A DNA stretch of 64,000 nt from Lysobacterales bacterium (GTDB lineage Bacteria > Pseudomonadota > Gammaproteobacteria > Xanthomonadales > Wenzhouxiangellaceae): the NCBI GenBank assembly GCA_002722315.1, contig PBLG01000052.1, positions 36,288-100,287 of the forward strand, in the 5' to 3' direction. The notes under the pieces were generated by a model that saw nothing but the letters and a program-made list of their open reading frames with translations, had not been told where the DNA came from and did not search any database. Each line of letters starts with the position of its first letter. Position 1 is the stretch's first letter. This document shows positions 41,367 to 44,795 of this stretch, piece by piece. The translations under genes and the position numbers were made by a program.

Positions 41367-41399
41367 AAAAAAAAAAAGGCCGCCCCGGGGGCGGCCTTT
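41367..41399 (-). terminator. Strong rho-independent terminator of the cohesin/dockerin operon
   Basis: GGCCGCCCC and GGGGCGGCC form a GC-rich stem; read on the minus strand it is followed by eleven T. It lies about 37 bases past the stop of the IPTL-CTERM protein gene. Confidence 0.92.
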
Positions 41400-41435
41400 C
41401 GTGCTTTCAGTCAGTGACCGAAATCAGGCTATGGC

Positions 41436-43397
41436 TCAGGCCATCATGCGGCGGCCGGCAACGCCGGCAACCAGCAGCAGCACCAGACTCATCACCACCA
41501 GGCCCCAACGGCTCATGGTCGGAATGACCAGCGGCCGACCGGCACAGGCGACGGTGAAGTCGAGCGCGGTAGTGCCGCGCGCCGGCGTTGTGCAGCTGAC
41601 GTCGGCGGTGAACGACGAGACGTCGGTCGGGGTGCACTGGAATGCCGCGGACTCGGTGCCGCCGGCCGGGATCGTGAACTGGATCGGGTCCGGCGTGAAG
41701 CTGAAGACGCCAGCCGTGTCGGTAACACTGCAATCCACGTTGATGCTGCCGTCGATCTGGTTGTTGGTGAAGCTGATCAGTCCTTCGCCGGTCGTGGTTC
41801 CTGGGGGAACCGTTCCGAGGTTCAGCGTACCGCCCGCTGCCGGACTGGTCGTCAGCGCGTCACCGGTACCCTCGCAGCTCAGCGGATAGGTGAATCCGCC
41901 GCCGGGCTGGTTCGGGTCGTTGGTCTGGACCGTCAGCGTGCCGTTGATGGTGCCGACACCCGGGGGCGTGCAGGTGACTTCGATGTCATCGGTGCCGTCG
42001 GGGCCGACATTGGCCGGGAAGCTCGAATTGATGACGTTGACGGTGAACACCGGATCGCTGGCGGTTGCAGAGCTGATGGTCAGGTCATTACCCGCCGGGT
42101 TGGTGTTGGCGTTATTGATGTCCAGGCCGTCGGGCGCCGACTGGGTGTTGGCCGCAGTCGCCAGCGAAAGAAGCGAACCCGGTACCGGATCGGAATTGTA
42201 GATCGGGGCGGTGTCGCTGACGGTGCAGTCGACCTGGATGGAGTCGGTGCCCGGGCCAACCGGATCGGTCCATGCAAAGTCGATCGTGCGGCTGAAGTTG
42301 CCTTCGGCGGACGAATCACAGGACACTGCAAAATTGAAGCTTCCGTCCGGCGCAATATTGGTCGGTCCGCCGGTAGTCACGGTGATCTCGGTGTCGCCGG
42401 CGCCGGCCGTTGCGGTCACGCCGTTGGCCGTGCTGGTGAAGCCGTCCTGCGGGTTGGTCACGGTGATGTTTGCGGTCGGATCCGCGCCGGCGACCGTGCT
42501 GCTCAGCGCGACCGGGCCGGCCGGGACCTGCACGTTCGGCGACAGGCCGGTACAGATCGTCGGGTAATCGGCGGTGGTCACGTTGTCGGCGTCGGTCGTT
42601 ATGGTGAACGTGCCGGTGTTGTTCCCACGACCCAGCGGCGTACAGTTCACATCGACGTCCACGCTGCCGGACGCGGCAACAGTGGCGGGAAGTGCCGGCG
42701 AGGTCAGGGAATACGAGCCGCTACCGACGGCGAAATTACCTGCTGCCGCAGTGATGTCGAACGCGGTATCGGTACTCAGGTTGTTCACCGTGACGGTCTC
42801 GTCCGGAGACGTCGGGTTGCCGACGACGGCGCTGCCGAAATCAATCGTCGTACCGGGAACCGGGTTGGAACTGAAGAAGGACTGGCCTGGAGGAACGTTG
42901 ACGGTAATCGAGCCGTCGTTCAGCGCCAGGTCGCCCGCGGTCAGCGCAGCACCGGTATCGGTGGTGGCGGACAGGAACGTCATCTCGACGGGGCTGACGG
43001 TACCGGGCGCAAGTCCGGGCGCCACGTCAAACGTGATCGATCCGACTGATGTTGTGGGAAGGACAGTACCCGAGAACTGGTCGGTGACCGTCAGCGCGAT
43101 AGCGCCGGCCGACGGGTTGTTGCACGCCGTGAAAGCACCGGTATGACTGGCCGGCAGATCCGCGACACAACCATTCACGTTCGGATTGGCAGCCGCGTCG
43201 GTCTGCGGCGTCAACTGCGCCGGGTCGTAGTCGATCCGAACCGAGAAAGAGGCCAGGTCCGTCGCTCCGGCGGTGTAGTTGATCGACACCGCCTGGGTGT
43301 CGGGCGAGCCAGCGGTCTCGTCGCTGATCGTGAGGGTCTGGGCCTGTGCGCCGATCGCGCATCCAGCCAGACAGAGGGCCAGCATAAACTTCTTCAT
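41436..43397 (-). CDS. Cohesin-like/ASH-repeat surface protein with IPTL-CTERM sorting signal
   Basis: The ATG at 43397 begins MKKFMLALCLAGCAIGAQAQ, a good signal peptide with GGAG upstream. Residues ~22-165 look like a cohesin domain: SFSVRIDYDPAQLTP, GSITFDVAPGLAPGTVSPVEM and a closing NDGSITV. Three to four repeats of ~110 residues follow, with the form PVPGTTIDFGSAVVGN...C-x-P, as in choice-of-anchor D/ASH-like domains. The C terminus VIPTMSRWGLVVMSLVLLLVAG plus RR is an IPTL-CTERM signal, normally processed by exosortase XrtH. Predicted to be displayed on the cell surface. Last gene of a three-gene operon with a second cohesin-like and a dockerin protein. No exosortase is in the window. 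Confidence 0.85.
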   Translation of the reverse strand: MKKFMLALCLAGCAIGAQAQTLTISDETAGSPDTQAVSINYTAGATDLASFSVRIDYDPAQLTPQTDAAANPNVNGCVADLPASHTGAFTACNNPSAGAIALTVTDQFSGTVLPTTSVGSITFDVAPGLAPGTVSPVEMTFLSATTDTGAALTAGDLALNDGSITVNVPPGQSFFSSNPVPGTTIDFGSAVVGNPTSPDETVTVNNLSTDTAFDITAAAGNFAVGSGSYSLTSPALPATVAASGSVDVDVNCTPLGRGNNTGTFTITTDADNVTTADYPTICTGLSPNVQVPAGPVALSSTVAGADPTANITVTNPQDGFTSTANGVTATAGAGDTEITVTTGGPTNIAPDGSFNFAVSCDSSAEGNFSRTIDFAWTDPVGPGTDSIQVDCTVSDTAPIYNSDPVPGSLLSLATAANTQSAPDGLDINNANTNPAGNDLTISSATASDPVFTVNVINSSFPANVGPDGTDDIEVTCTPPGVGTINGTLTVQTNDPNQPGGGFTYPLSCEGTGDALTTSPAAGGTLNLGTVPPGTTTGEGLISFTNNQIDGSINVDCSVTDTAGVFSFTPDPIQFTIPAGGTESAAFQCTPTDVSSFTADVSCTTPARGTTALDFTVACAGRPLVIPTMSRWGLVVMSLVLLLVAGVAGRRMMA

Positions 43398-43473
43398 CAG
43401 ATACATCTCCACTCGTTTTGAATTTTATTGAGCCGTGCGGCTCGTATGCCGCACGGCCCGTATTACCGAATCG

Positions 43474-43944
43474 TCAATCGACTTGAAGTTCGACGATCGA
43501 CTCGGAGTTTCCCCTGATTTTATCGCCGTTGGTATCCAGCGCGACAACGTTCTCGATCCGGAAATCGCTGTCACTGGCCAGGCCCGAGTCGAACTCGGCG
43601 AAGCCCAGGATCCCCGGCGCAAGCTGACGAGACATGCCGATATCGCTGATCACGACCAGCAGAACATTCTTTTCAGGGAAGTTCTTGCATGTCGTGAACG
43701 ACTTCTTGTGAGAGTCGGGAATTCCATCCAGGCAGCTCGAAAGATTACCGATCGAAGCACCCTGAGGATAGTGAAGCTCGAACTGAACACCCGAAACATT
43801 GTCCATGGCCAGGTTGAAGGCCACAACGGACGTGTTCTGTCCGATCGCTTCCTTGGACAATCCGATGGAGCCTTCCTGCGCCTGAACCTGGAGCGTCAAC
43901 GCGGACGCGGCAATACCTGCCAGAAGAAGATTTCTGATTTTCAT
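43474..43944 (-). CDS. Small secreted cohesin-like protein
   Basis: 156 residues. A GTG at 43953 would overlap the preceding gene; the ATG at 43944 is better placed relative to AGGGTGA and starts the signal peptide MKIRNLLLAGIAASALTLQVQAQ. The mature part, ~130 residues, follows the cohesin pattern: an early strand pair, SGVQFELHYPQG, a C-containing middle, GILGFAEFDSGL, and FRIENVVALDTNGDKI. It has no C-terminal anchor. Its position between the dockerin gene and the anchored cohesin gene suggests a partner role. The assignment rests on pattern only and is less firm than for the large protein. Confidence 0.6.
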   Translation of the reverse strand: MKIRNLLLAGIAASALTLQVQAQEGSIGLSKEAIGQNTSVVAFNLAMDNVSGVQFELHYPQGASIGNLSSCLDGIPDSHKKSFTTCKNFPEKNVLLVVISDIGMSRQLAPGILGFAEFDSGLASDSDFRIENVVALDTNGDKIRGNSESIVELQVD

Positions 43945-43949
43945 GTCAT

Positions 43950-44795
43950 TCACCCTGGAAATGCCGAGCAGTCGCCTTGCAGCGCCTGAATGAAGCCAAA
44001 GATTACGTTCAGGTCCGGCAAGCCTACGCTGCCGTCTTCGTTCGCGTCGGGCGTTCCCGGCGCAGGCGTTCCACCCAGCGTCTGGAGTTCGGTGAAAAGT
44101 ACCTGAAGGTCATTGATGTCACGCGTGCCGTCGGCGTCCGGGTTGCCACGGCACAGCCGACCGATCTCGGTCGTCCTGCGCGATTCGTAAGCGTCGAACC
44201 CAAGCGTGCCGGCCGCGGAGTTGAGGTTTCCGAGACGGACGGACTGAAGCCCGGCGCCCGCGTTCGCGAGACCGGTCTGTTGAGCGGGCGTCTGACCATT
44301 GACGGACAGAGAAATGAACCCGTCACCGGCACCTTGCGACCAGTCAATTTCTACGGAAGACCAGGCTGTGTTTCCGGCTTGCTGCACCTGGGTGCCCGTA
44401 GCGTTGTCGATCAGCGTGACCGAACCGGCAGAATTCAGAAAGACCGTGAACAGCTGACCGGTTCCGCCGGTGGTGCTGAATCCGCGGTAAATCAGGCTTG
44501 CACCGCTGCTGAGCCCGTTACGAACATAGAACCGGGCCCGAATGCGATCGATGCCGCCCGGGCTGTCGTCCTGAACCCAGGCATTGGCCGCCGATGGCGT
44601 TTCCATCGAGCAGATGCCTGCGTAACGGGCGATTCCGCCGGAATTCGGGCCGCCGGCGGTAACGTTGCCGGAATTGCCGCCGTTCCAGTTGTCGACCGTG
44701 CAGGCCATTGCCGTCTGGGCGCCGAGGAGCAGGCCCAGCGCAAGGGTCGCGGTCGCACGTCTTGCCAGGCGCGAGTTGAGATTGATCATTTTCAT
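43950..44795 (-). CDS. Secreted protein with concanavalin-like domain and type I dockerin-like repeats
   Basis: Signal peptide at the N terminus (RRATATLALGLLLGAQTAMA). The middle (residues ~30-205) is beta-rich with paired cysteines, like a LamG/concanavalin domain. The C-terminal ~65 residues hold two calcium-binding loops in dockerin spacing: NPDADGTRDINDL and DANEDGSVGLPDL, each followed by a hydrophobic helix (QVLFTELQTLGG; NVIFGFIQALQG). Both loops fit D/N-x-D/N-x-D-G-x5-D-L. Dockerins bind cohesins in cellulosomes and in other surface assemblies. First gene of the operon; the next two encode cohesin-like proteins, so a specific pairing is likely. Confidence 0.75.
   Translation of the reverse strand: MKMINLNSRLARRATATLALGLLLGAQTAMACTVDNWNGGNSGNVTAGGPNSGGIARYAGICSMETPSAANAWVQDDSPGGIDRIRARFYVRNGLSSGASLIYRGFSTTGGTGQLFTVFLNSAGSVTLIDNATGTQVQQAGNTAWSSVEIDWSQGAGDGFISLSVNGQTPAQQTGLANAGAGLQSVRLGNLNSAAGTLGFDAYESRRTTEIGRLCRGNPDADGTRDINDLQVLFTELQTLGGTPAPGTPDANEDGSVGLPDLNVIFGFIQALQGDCSAFPG

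Follow-up and report, generated by a model that had tools for sequence, protein, structure and literature searches.

A review of anaerobic methanotrophs (PMC5244752, which cites Peer et al. 2009) remarks that cohesins and dockerins are found in every domain of life but that their function beyond the cellulosome is not known. What might such modules be doing in a Gram-negative bacterium in which both partners are encoded side by side? The question is raised by three adjacent minus-strand genes in a stretch of 64,000 nucleotides (hereafter the window) from a member of the Lysobacterales in the family Wenzhouxiangellaceae (GenBank assembly GCA_002722315.1, contig PBLG01000052.1, positions 36,288 to 100,287), which lies within a 3.5 Mb metagenome-assembled genome (MAG) that is 85% complete. 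In order of transcription, the genes encode the dockerin protein P0003, the lone cohesin P0002 and the anchored cohesin protein P0001. A preliminary description, made from the letters of the sequence, had read them as a scaffold at the surface for the capture of a concanavalin-like protein with a dockerin, in a setting other than the usual cellulosome. Here we consider it quite probable, judging from sequence comparison and structural models, that the three genes form a dedicated, non-cellulosomal cohesin-dockerin display module in which P0001 would be anchored, P0003 docked and P0002 free.

Family-level identity of the three proteins

The P0003 gene (281 amino acids, 43950..44795; all coordinates are on the minus strand), called from its open reading frame (ORF), an AlphaFold2 model and its homologs, is followed after 5 bases by that of P0002 (156 amino acids, 43474..43944), called from its ORF, hhalign comparison and predicted fold, and about 75 bases further on by that of P0001 (41436..43397), which has 653 amino acids counted from the ATG at 43397, a GTG at 43412 being a possible alternative start. 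All three genes stand where the preliminary description had placed them, each with a signal-peptide-like N-terminal segment, and their products would be secreted. P0001 continues from this segment into a cohesin domain, a run of ASH/choice-of-anchor-D repeats and an IPTL-CTERM tail.

Searches of Pfam and the PDB with the single sequences of these three proteins found neither a cohesin nor a dockerin. Because these sequences alone were insufficient for the assignment, homologous loci were collected from the family and the order, and the cohesin and dockerin identities proposed here draw on family profiles and fold prediction. For the N-terminal domain of P0001 (42885..43343), the Pfam cohesin model PF00963 gives 18.0 bits, below its cut-off of 24.1; it matches 15 of the 27 P0001-type homologs individually, however, with a best value of 6.9e-11. 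A profile of the 27 N-termini matches PDB cohesins directly (6kg8 at 4.7e-11, 2vn5 at 2.5e-9, 1g1k at 2.8e-9, and others), so the cohesin that had been suspected here appears in a sensitive profile search.

The same holds for P0002, likewise described beforehand as cohesin-like, by a different route. It has no Pfam match as a single sequence, but with signal peptides removed hhalign aligns the P0002-type proteins to the P0001-type cohesins with a probability of 97-98, against at most 0.3 for unrelated or column-shuffled controls, and the corresponding small proteins at the level of the order are matched directly by the cohesin profile. Since the P0002-family profile matched no PDB sequence, we turned to fold prediction. 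In the AlphaFold2 model, whose predicted local distance difference test score (pLDDT) is 77.6, P0002 is predicted to adopt the cohesin jelly-roll fold: each of its 23 matches in the PDB at E<0.001 is a cohesin (template-modelling score, TM, to the query 0.48-0.59), the closest being 2xdh, a non-cellulosomal cohesin of Archaeoglobus fulgidus. Both cohesin groups share an invariant cysteine pair (C78/C93 in P0001, C71/C86 in P0002), presumably a disulfide, and each protein, the anchored P0001 included, has one cohesin domain.

As a single sequence, P0003 has no relevant Pfam family and no glycoside hydrolase domain, and its only two matches among PDB sequences are designed proteins. Its dockerin module (residues 212-281, 43953..44162) emerges from the family, since the Pfam dockerin model PF00404, which does not match P0003 itself, matches 9 of its 30 homologs (best 7.4e-10) and exceeds its cut-off at loci L095 and L110, and only the last 60 residues of the P0003 family profile match dockerins in the PDB. 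Within the genome, the dockerin profile A7, which includes the P0003 sequence, finds a single module, that of P0003 (1.2e-18). We took as a dockerin loop one with Asp or Asn at positions 1, 3, 5, 9 and 12, the two loop-helix repeats together spanning about 60-70 residues. The two calcium loops that had been noticed in P0003, NPDADGTRDIND (residues 218-229, 44109..44144) and DANEDGSVGLPD (residues 250-261, 44013..44048), are spaced 32 residues apart; D229 of the first and D250, G255 and D261 of the second are invariant in 53 homologs. The AlphaFold2 model (pLDDT 87.7) shows a jelly roll and then two loop-helix repeats, with helices at 227-238 and 259-270, so that the module has the type I layout of two F-hand calcium loops, each followed by a helix. 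The cysteines that flank the module (LC before loop 1, GDC after helix 2) occur together in 29 of 58 dockerins and are missing together in 27, with two exceptions, and this pairing is probably that of a disulfide clasp gained and lost as a unit.

The jelly roll of P0003 (residues 30-211, 44163..44708) is the LamG, or concanavalin-like, domain that had been expected. C32, W37, C62 and D201 are invariant in it, and Laminin_G_2 or Laminin_G_3 match a few of the 30 homologs. Foldseek places it near PL7 lyases, pentraxins, the thrombospondin N-domain, neurexin and the botulinum NTNH and HC domains, with E about 1e-6 and TM to the query of 0.27-0.43, values that indicate a general jelly-roll relationship only. 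No specific identity was drawn from the fold search, the botulinum matches reflecting a shared fold and nothing further.

In P0001, the ASH-like repeats reported earlier (41541..42866) are matched by PF15780 (1.5e-7), PF22544 (7.5e-7) and, in four stretches, the choice_anch_D model NF012200 (3.5e-19). The sorting signal at its C-terminus, '..VIPTMSRWGLVVMSLVLLLVAGVAGRRMMA' (41448..41525), scores 20.9 bits with TIGR04174, the model of the exosortase XrtH type of IPTL-CTERM signal, just above the cut-off of 20.5. With the Pfam counterpart PF18203, it remains below (16.4 bits, cut-off 20.8), and it is the highest-ranking IPTL-CTERM site in the genome. The direct model searches that had been proposed for the three proteins thus bear out the tail, while none of the window's proteins reaches the cut-off of PF00963 or PF00404. 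Directly past the last stop codon lies a G+C-rich, terminator-like hairpin of 12 pairs followed by a T run (41374..41400), the longest stem in the region; the "strong terminator" of the preliminary description is there as a structure, but such sites occur in the region overall at chance frequency.

Conservation of the cassette and its tail

A P0003 homolog is present in 28 of 43 genomes of the family, and in 23 of the 25 of good quality, and wherever a contig end does not interrupt the family locus, a cohesin protein almost always adjoins this homolog or is fused with it. The cassette extends to at least eight further families of the order (f2, f4-f9 and f11). There it occurs in a three-gene form of LamG-dockerin protein, small cohesin and cohesin with tail (L095, L097-L100, L102-L108, L113-L115, L122 and L124-L126) and in a two-gene form in which the small cohesin was undetected (L096, L109, L110, L112 and L120). 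Dozens of genomes have the set in the same gene order, and it is therefore more than a chance arrangement. The downstream neighbours vary, being a response regulator and histidine kinase of the PhoP/PhoQ type in the genus of our genome and a NarL-type kinase and regulator pair in the genus g6, which means that the cassette keeps together on its own. Beyond the order, a class-wide sample of 369 genomes and a phylum-wide one of 399 yielded no cassette at the thresholds used, a weak negative in that few candidates were scored per genome. In a scan of genome contigs, the P0001 query returned no loci and the A4 query returned 10.

The tail is conserved with the genes. Among 43 complete cassette cohesin proteins, 40 end in an IPTL-type sequence consisting of a motif of the [IV]P[TAS] type, a hydrophobic stretch and Arg/Lys. 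One of the three without it, at L107, is explained by a neighbouring paralog that the script had picked, the IPTL protein itself being present there.

Several variants of these proteins were seen along the way. Fused forms of about 2000 amino acids (L057, L073 and L074) combine cohesin, ASH repeats, LamG, dockerin, a second cohesin-like domain (called by eye), further ASH repeats and FG-GAP-like repeats, and cohesin and dockerin also share one protein at L101 and L121. At L050:1500-5625 (genome G012), the cohesin-IPTL gene is tandemly duplicated behind the dockerin gene. A different protein of 419 amino acids in a genome of the same genus (G002, L001:1486-2745) has an N-terminal cohesin-like domain and a C-terminal dockerin (PF00404, 4.7e-14). 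In genome G019 (1.8 Mb, xrtH present), where no cassette cohesin was detected, a LamG protein without a dockerin (L072:6228-7028) ends in 'VAIPLAAAWSLLAMALALWLSTVFGRARGR', a hydrophobic tail that looks IPTL-like by eye and receives no score from the IPTL models; a replacement of the dockerin by such a tail where the cohesin is undetected is only suggestive. Cohesin ORFs of the order that lie outside the cassette (L116-L119, L127, L130 and L131) lack the IPTL tail and end in '..IFxDGFE' or 'FADSFE', and a similar motif precedes the LamG domain at L068, L069 and L071; it is possibly a separate C-terminal signal or the start of a domain. A contig labelled 'PVC group bacterium' (L081) carries a LamG protein 50% identical to a Wenzhouxiangella one and is probably misbinned.

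Repeat symmetry, covariation and rival readings

In the dual binding mode, the F-hands of a dockerin are duplicated and their residues mirrored (PMC4728124). In 58 dockerins, repeat 1 was set against repeat 2 at ten positions around the final Asp of the loop, and the repeats agree within one protein at 5.43 of 10 positions, against 1.73 of 10 under random pairing (z 22.7; 0 of 20,000 shuffles). The motifs themselves differ from species to species while matching within each protein, as in the pairs NSGD/NSGD, NVFD/NVFD, NIID/NIID and TSGDVT/TSGDVT. Homogenisation of the DNA, or recent conversion between the repeats, was ruled out as the source of this symmetry by a codon identity near chance (0.469 over 305 residue pairs, against 0.439 expected from the codon usage of the genes). 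Selection at the level of the protein would instead seem to preserve the likeness of the two dockerin faces, as would follow if one and the same cohesin were bound by either face.

The dockerin contact residues also vary together with the cohesins. Given the LamG distance, their distances correlate with those of the anchored cohesins at a partial r of 0.39 (n=50) and with those of the free cohesins at 0.45 (n=29), with 0 of 2000 permutations in either case; for the LamG domain on the same chain the correlations are lower (0.27-0.31). This covariation is suggestive of coevolution and is not proof of it.

Several observations weigh against the display module. Shared ancestry is only partly removed by the LamG distance and may inflate the covariation. 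Position 9 of the second calcium loop of P0003 is Gly and not Asn or Asp, and its own repeats match at only 3 of 10 positions, which places it among the less symmetric dockerins. Genus g6 and some other families lack the small cohesin; because it is missing there and from the two-gene loci, we regard it as accessory. Lastly, the search for xrtH that had been suggested (TIGR04177) did not find the gene in this 85%-complete MAG. The five other genomes of the genus all have XrtH, as do all further cassette genomes tested and nearly every genome searched in the order, and the failure to detect it in our genome is probably a matter of MAG incompleteness. Family f2 has a single cassette genome, which encodes XrtH; three f2 genomes lack both the cassette cohesin and XrtH. 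Our own genome (G000) contains at least five IPTL-CTERM proteins above the cut-off, yet xrtH went undetected.

The rival that survives best holds that these cohesin-like and dockerin-like domains no longer bind, and are generic beta-sandwich or calcium-stabilised pieces linked through a common surface layer or matrix. It would account for scores below the Pfam cut-offs, for the low repeat symmetry of P0003 and for the first calcium loop being degenerate ('RGLTDPDR...') in many members of g6. We nevertheless find it unlikely, given that the 58 dockerins keep matching contact residues in their repeats despite the divergence of the species and with no homogenisation of the DNA, that these residues covary with both cohesins, and that dockerin and cohesin occur together in nearly every genome.

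A second rival makes the free P0002 the primary partner of the dockerin and leaves the P0001 cohesin to some other task, such as self-association or matrix binding. The covariation is as strong with P0002 as with P0001, and the P0002 gene directly follows that of the dockerin, but the dockerin and the anchored cohesin are retained in genus g6, at the f6 locus and at the f8 loci, where the small cohesin is undetected. The anchored cohesin is therefore the constant partner, and we rate this second rival as improbable, below the first. A true cellulosome-like scaffold, in which a scaffoldin with several cohesins gathers many dockerin-bearing enzymes, would use the same kinds of domain, but with exactly one such dockerin in our genome and in most of the family genomes that contain one at all, no glycoside hydrolase domain in the dockerin protein and one cohesin domain per protein, it is refuted at the sensitivity of the searches used. 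The preliminary description was right to set these genes outside the cellulosome; the search that it proposed for further dockerin proteins in the genome yielded the P0003 module only. Its reading as a whole agrees with the family profiles, predicted folds, gene order, repeat symmetry and covariation, while "scaffold" is too strong a word for one cohesin domain and, mostly, one dockerin per genome.

A proposed display module and its relatives

In the display module that we favor, P0001 would be exported by Sec and attached to the surface through its IPTL-CTERM tail by XrtH, with the ASH repeats holding its N-terminal cohesin outward. P0003, secreted with no anchor of its own, would plug its C-terminal dockerin into that cohesin, presumably in a calcium-dependent manner, and would thereby display its LamG domain on the surface, where its probable ligand would be a polymer or glycan outside the cell. 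The free cohesin P0002 would most likely engage this dockerin too, in solution, either as partner or as competitor (a chaperone, cap or release factor). A bolder version, which we put forward tentatively as the less likely outcome, is that of an ancient Gram-negative plug-and-socket display whose parts stay together and coevolve across the order, consisting of an anchored XrtH-substrate cohesin, a free cohesin as competitor or chaperone and a lectin-like dockerin client, in which retention of the lectin may be tuned by calcium and by how much anchored cohesin there is relative to free cohesin.

The closest known systems are the clostridial type I pairs (CipA/Xyn10B of C. thermocellum, 1ohz; CaCohA2/CaDoc0917, 6kgc), which share the cohesin fold, the two F-hand loops, the symmetry between repeats that goes with dual binding and the division between an anchored cohesin protein and a free dockerin protein. 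The present set differs from them in its single cohesin per protein, its single enzyme-free dockerin client, its Gram-negative host, its exosortase-type anchor, its extra free cohesin and its invariant cohesin cysteine pair. Non-cellulosomal modules, as in A. fulgidus (2xdh), Clostridium perfringens NagJ (a cohesin-like module, 2jh2) and ANME archaea (PMC5244752), are the same modules beyond cellulose degradation, but here the genes of the two partners lie next to each other in an operon conserved across the order and joined to an IPTL-CTERM anchor. That anchor resembles known XrtH substrates (TIGR04174/TIGR04177) in its C-terminal tail of the form [IV]P[TA]..(W)-TM-RR. Among open-licence papers, a weak basis for a negative, we found none that connects a cohesin-dockerin pair with XrtH or IPTL-CTERM proteins and none on exosortase with XrtH or PEP-CTERM with cohesin; the only IPTL-CTERM paper found concerns Methylomirabilis, and the paper on Wenzhouxiangella AB-CW3 does not mention the cassette proteins.

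The snap-together system of cellulose degraders thus seems to have been put here to an unrelated use at the surface. The dozens of naturally diverged pairs could serve as orthogonal protein couplers. With both partners encoded together, mostly one client per family genome, an exosortase tail and a family that has cultured members (Wenzhouxiangella), the question of what cohesins and dockerins do outside the cellulosome becomes a small binding and knock-out experiment.

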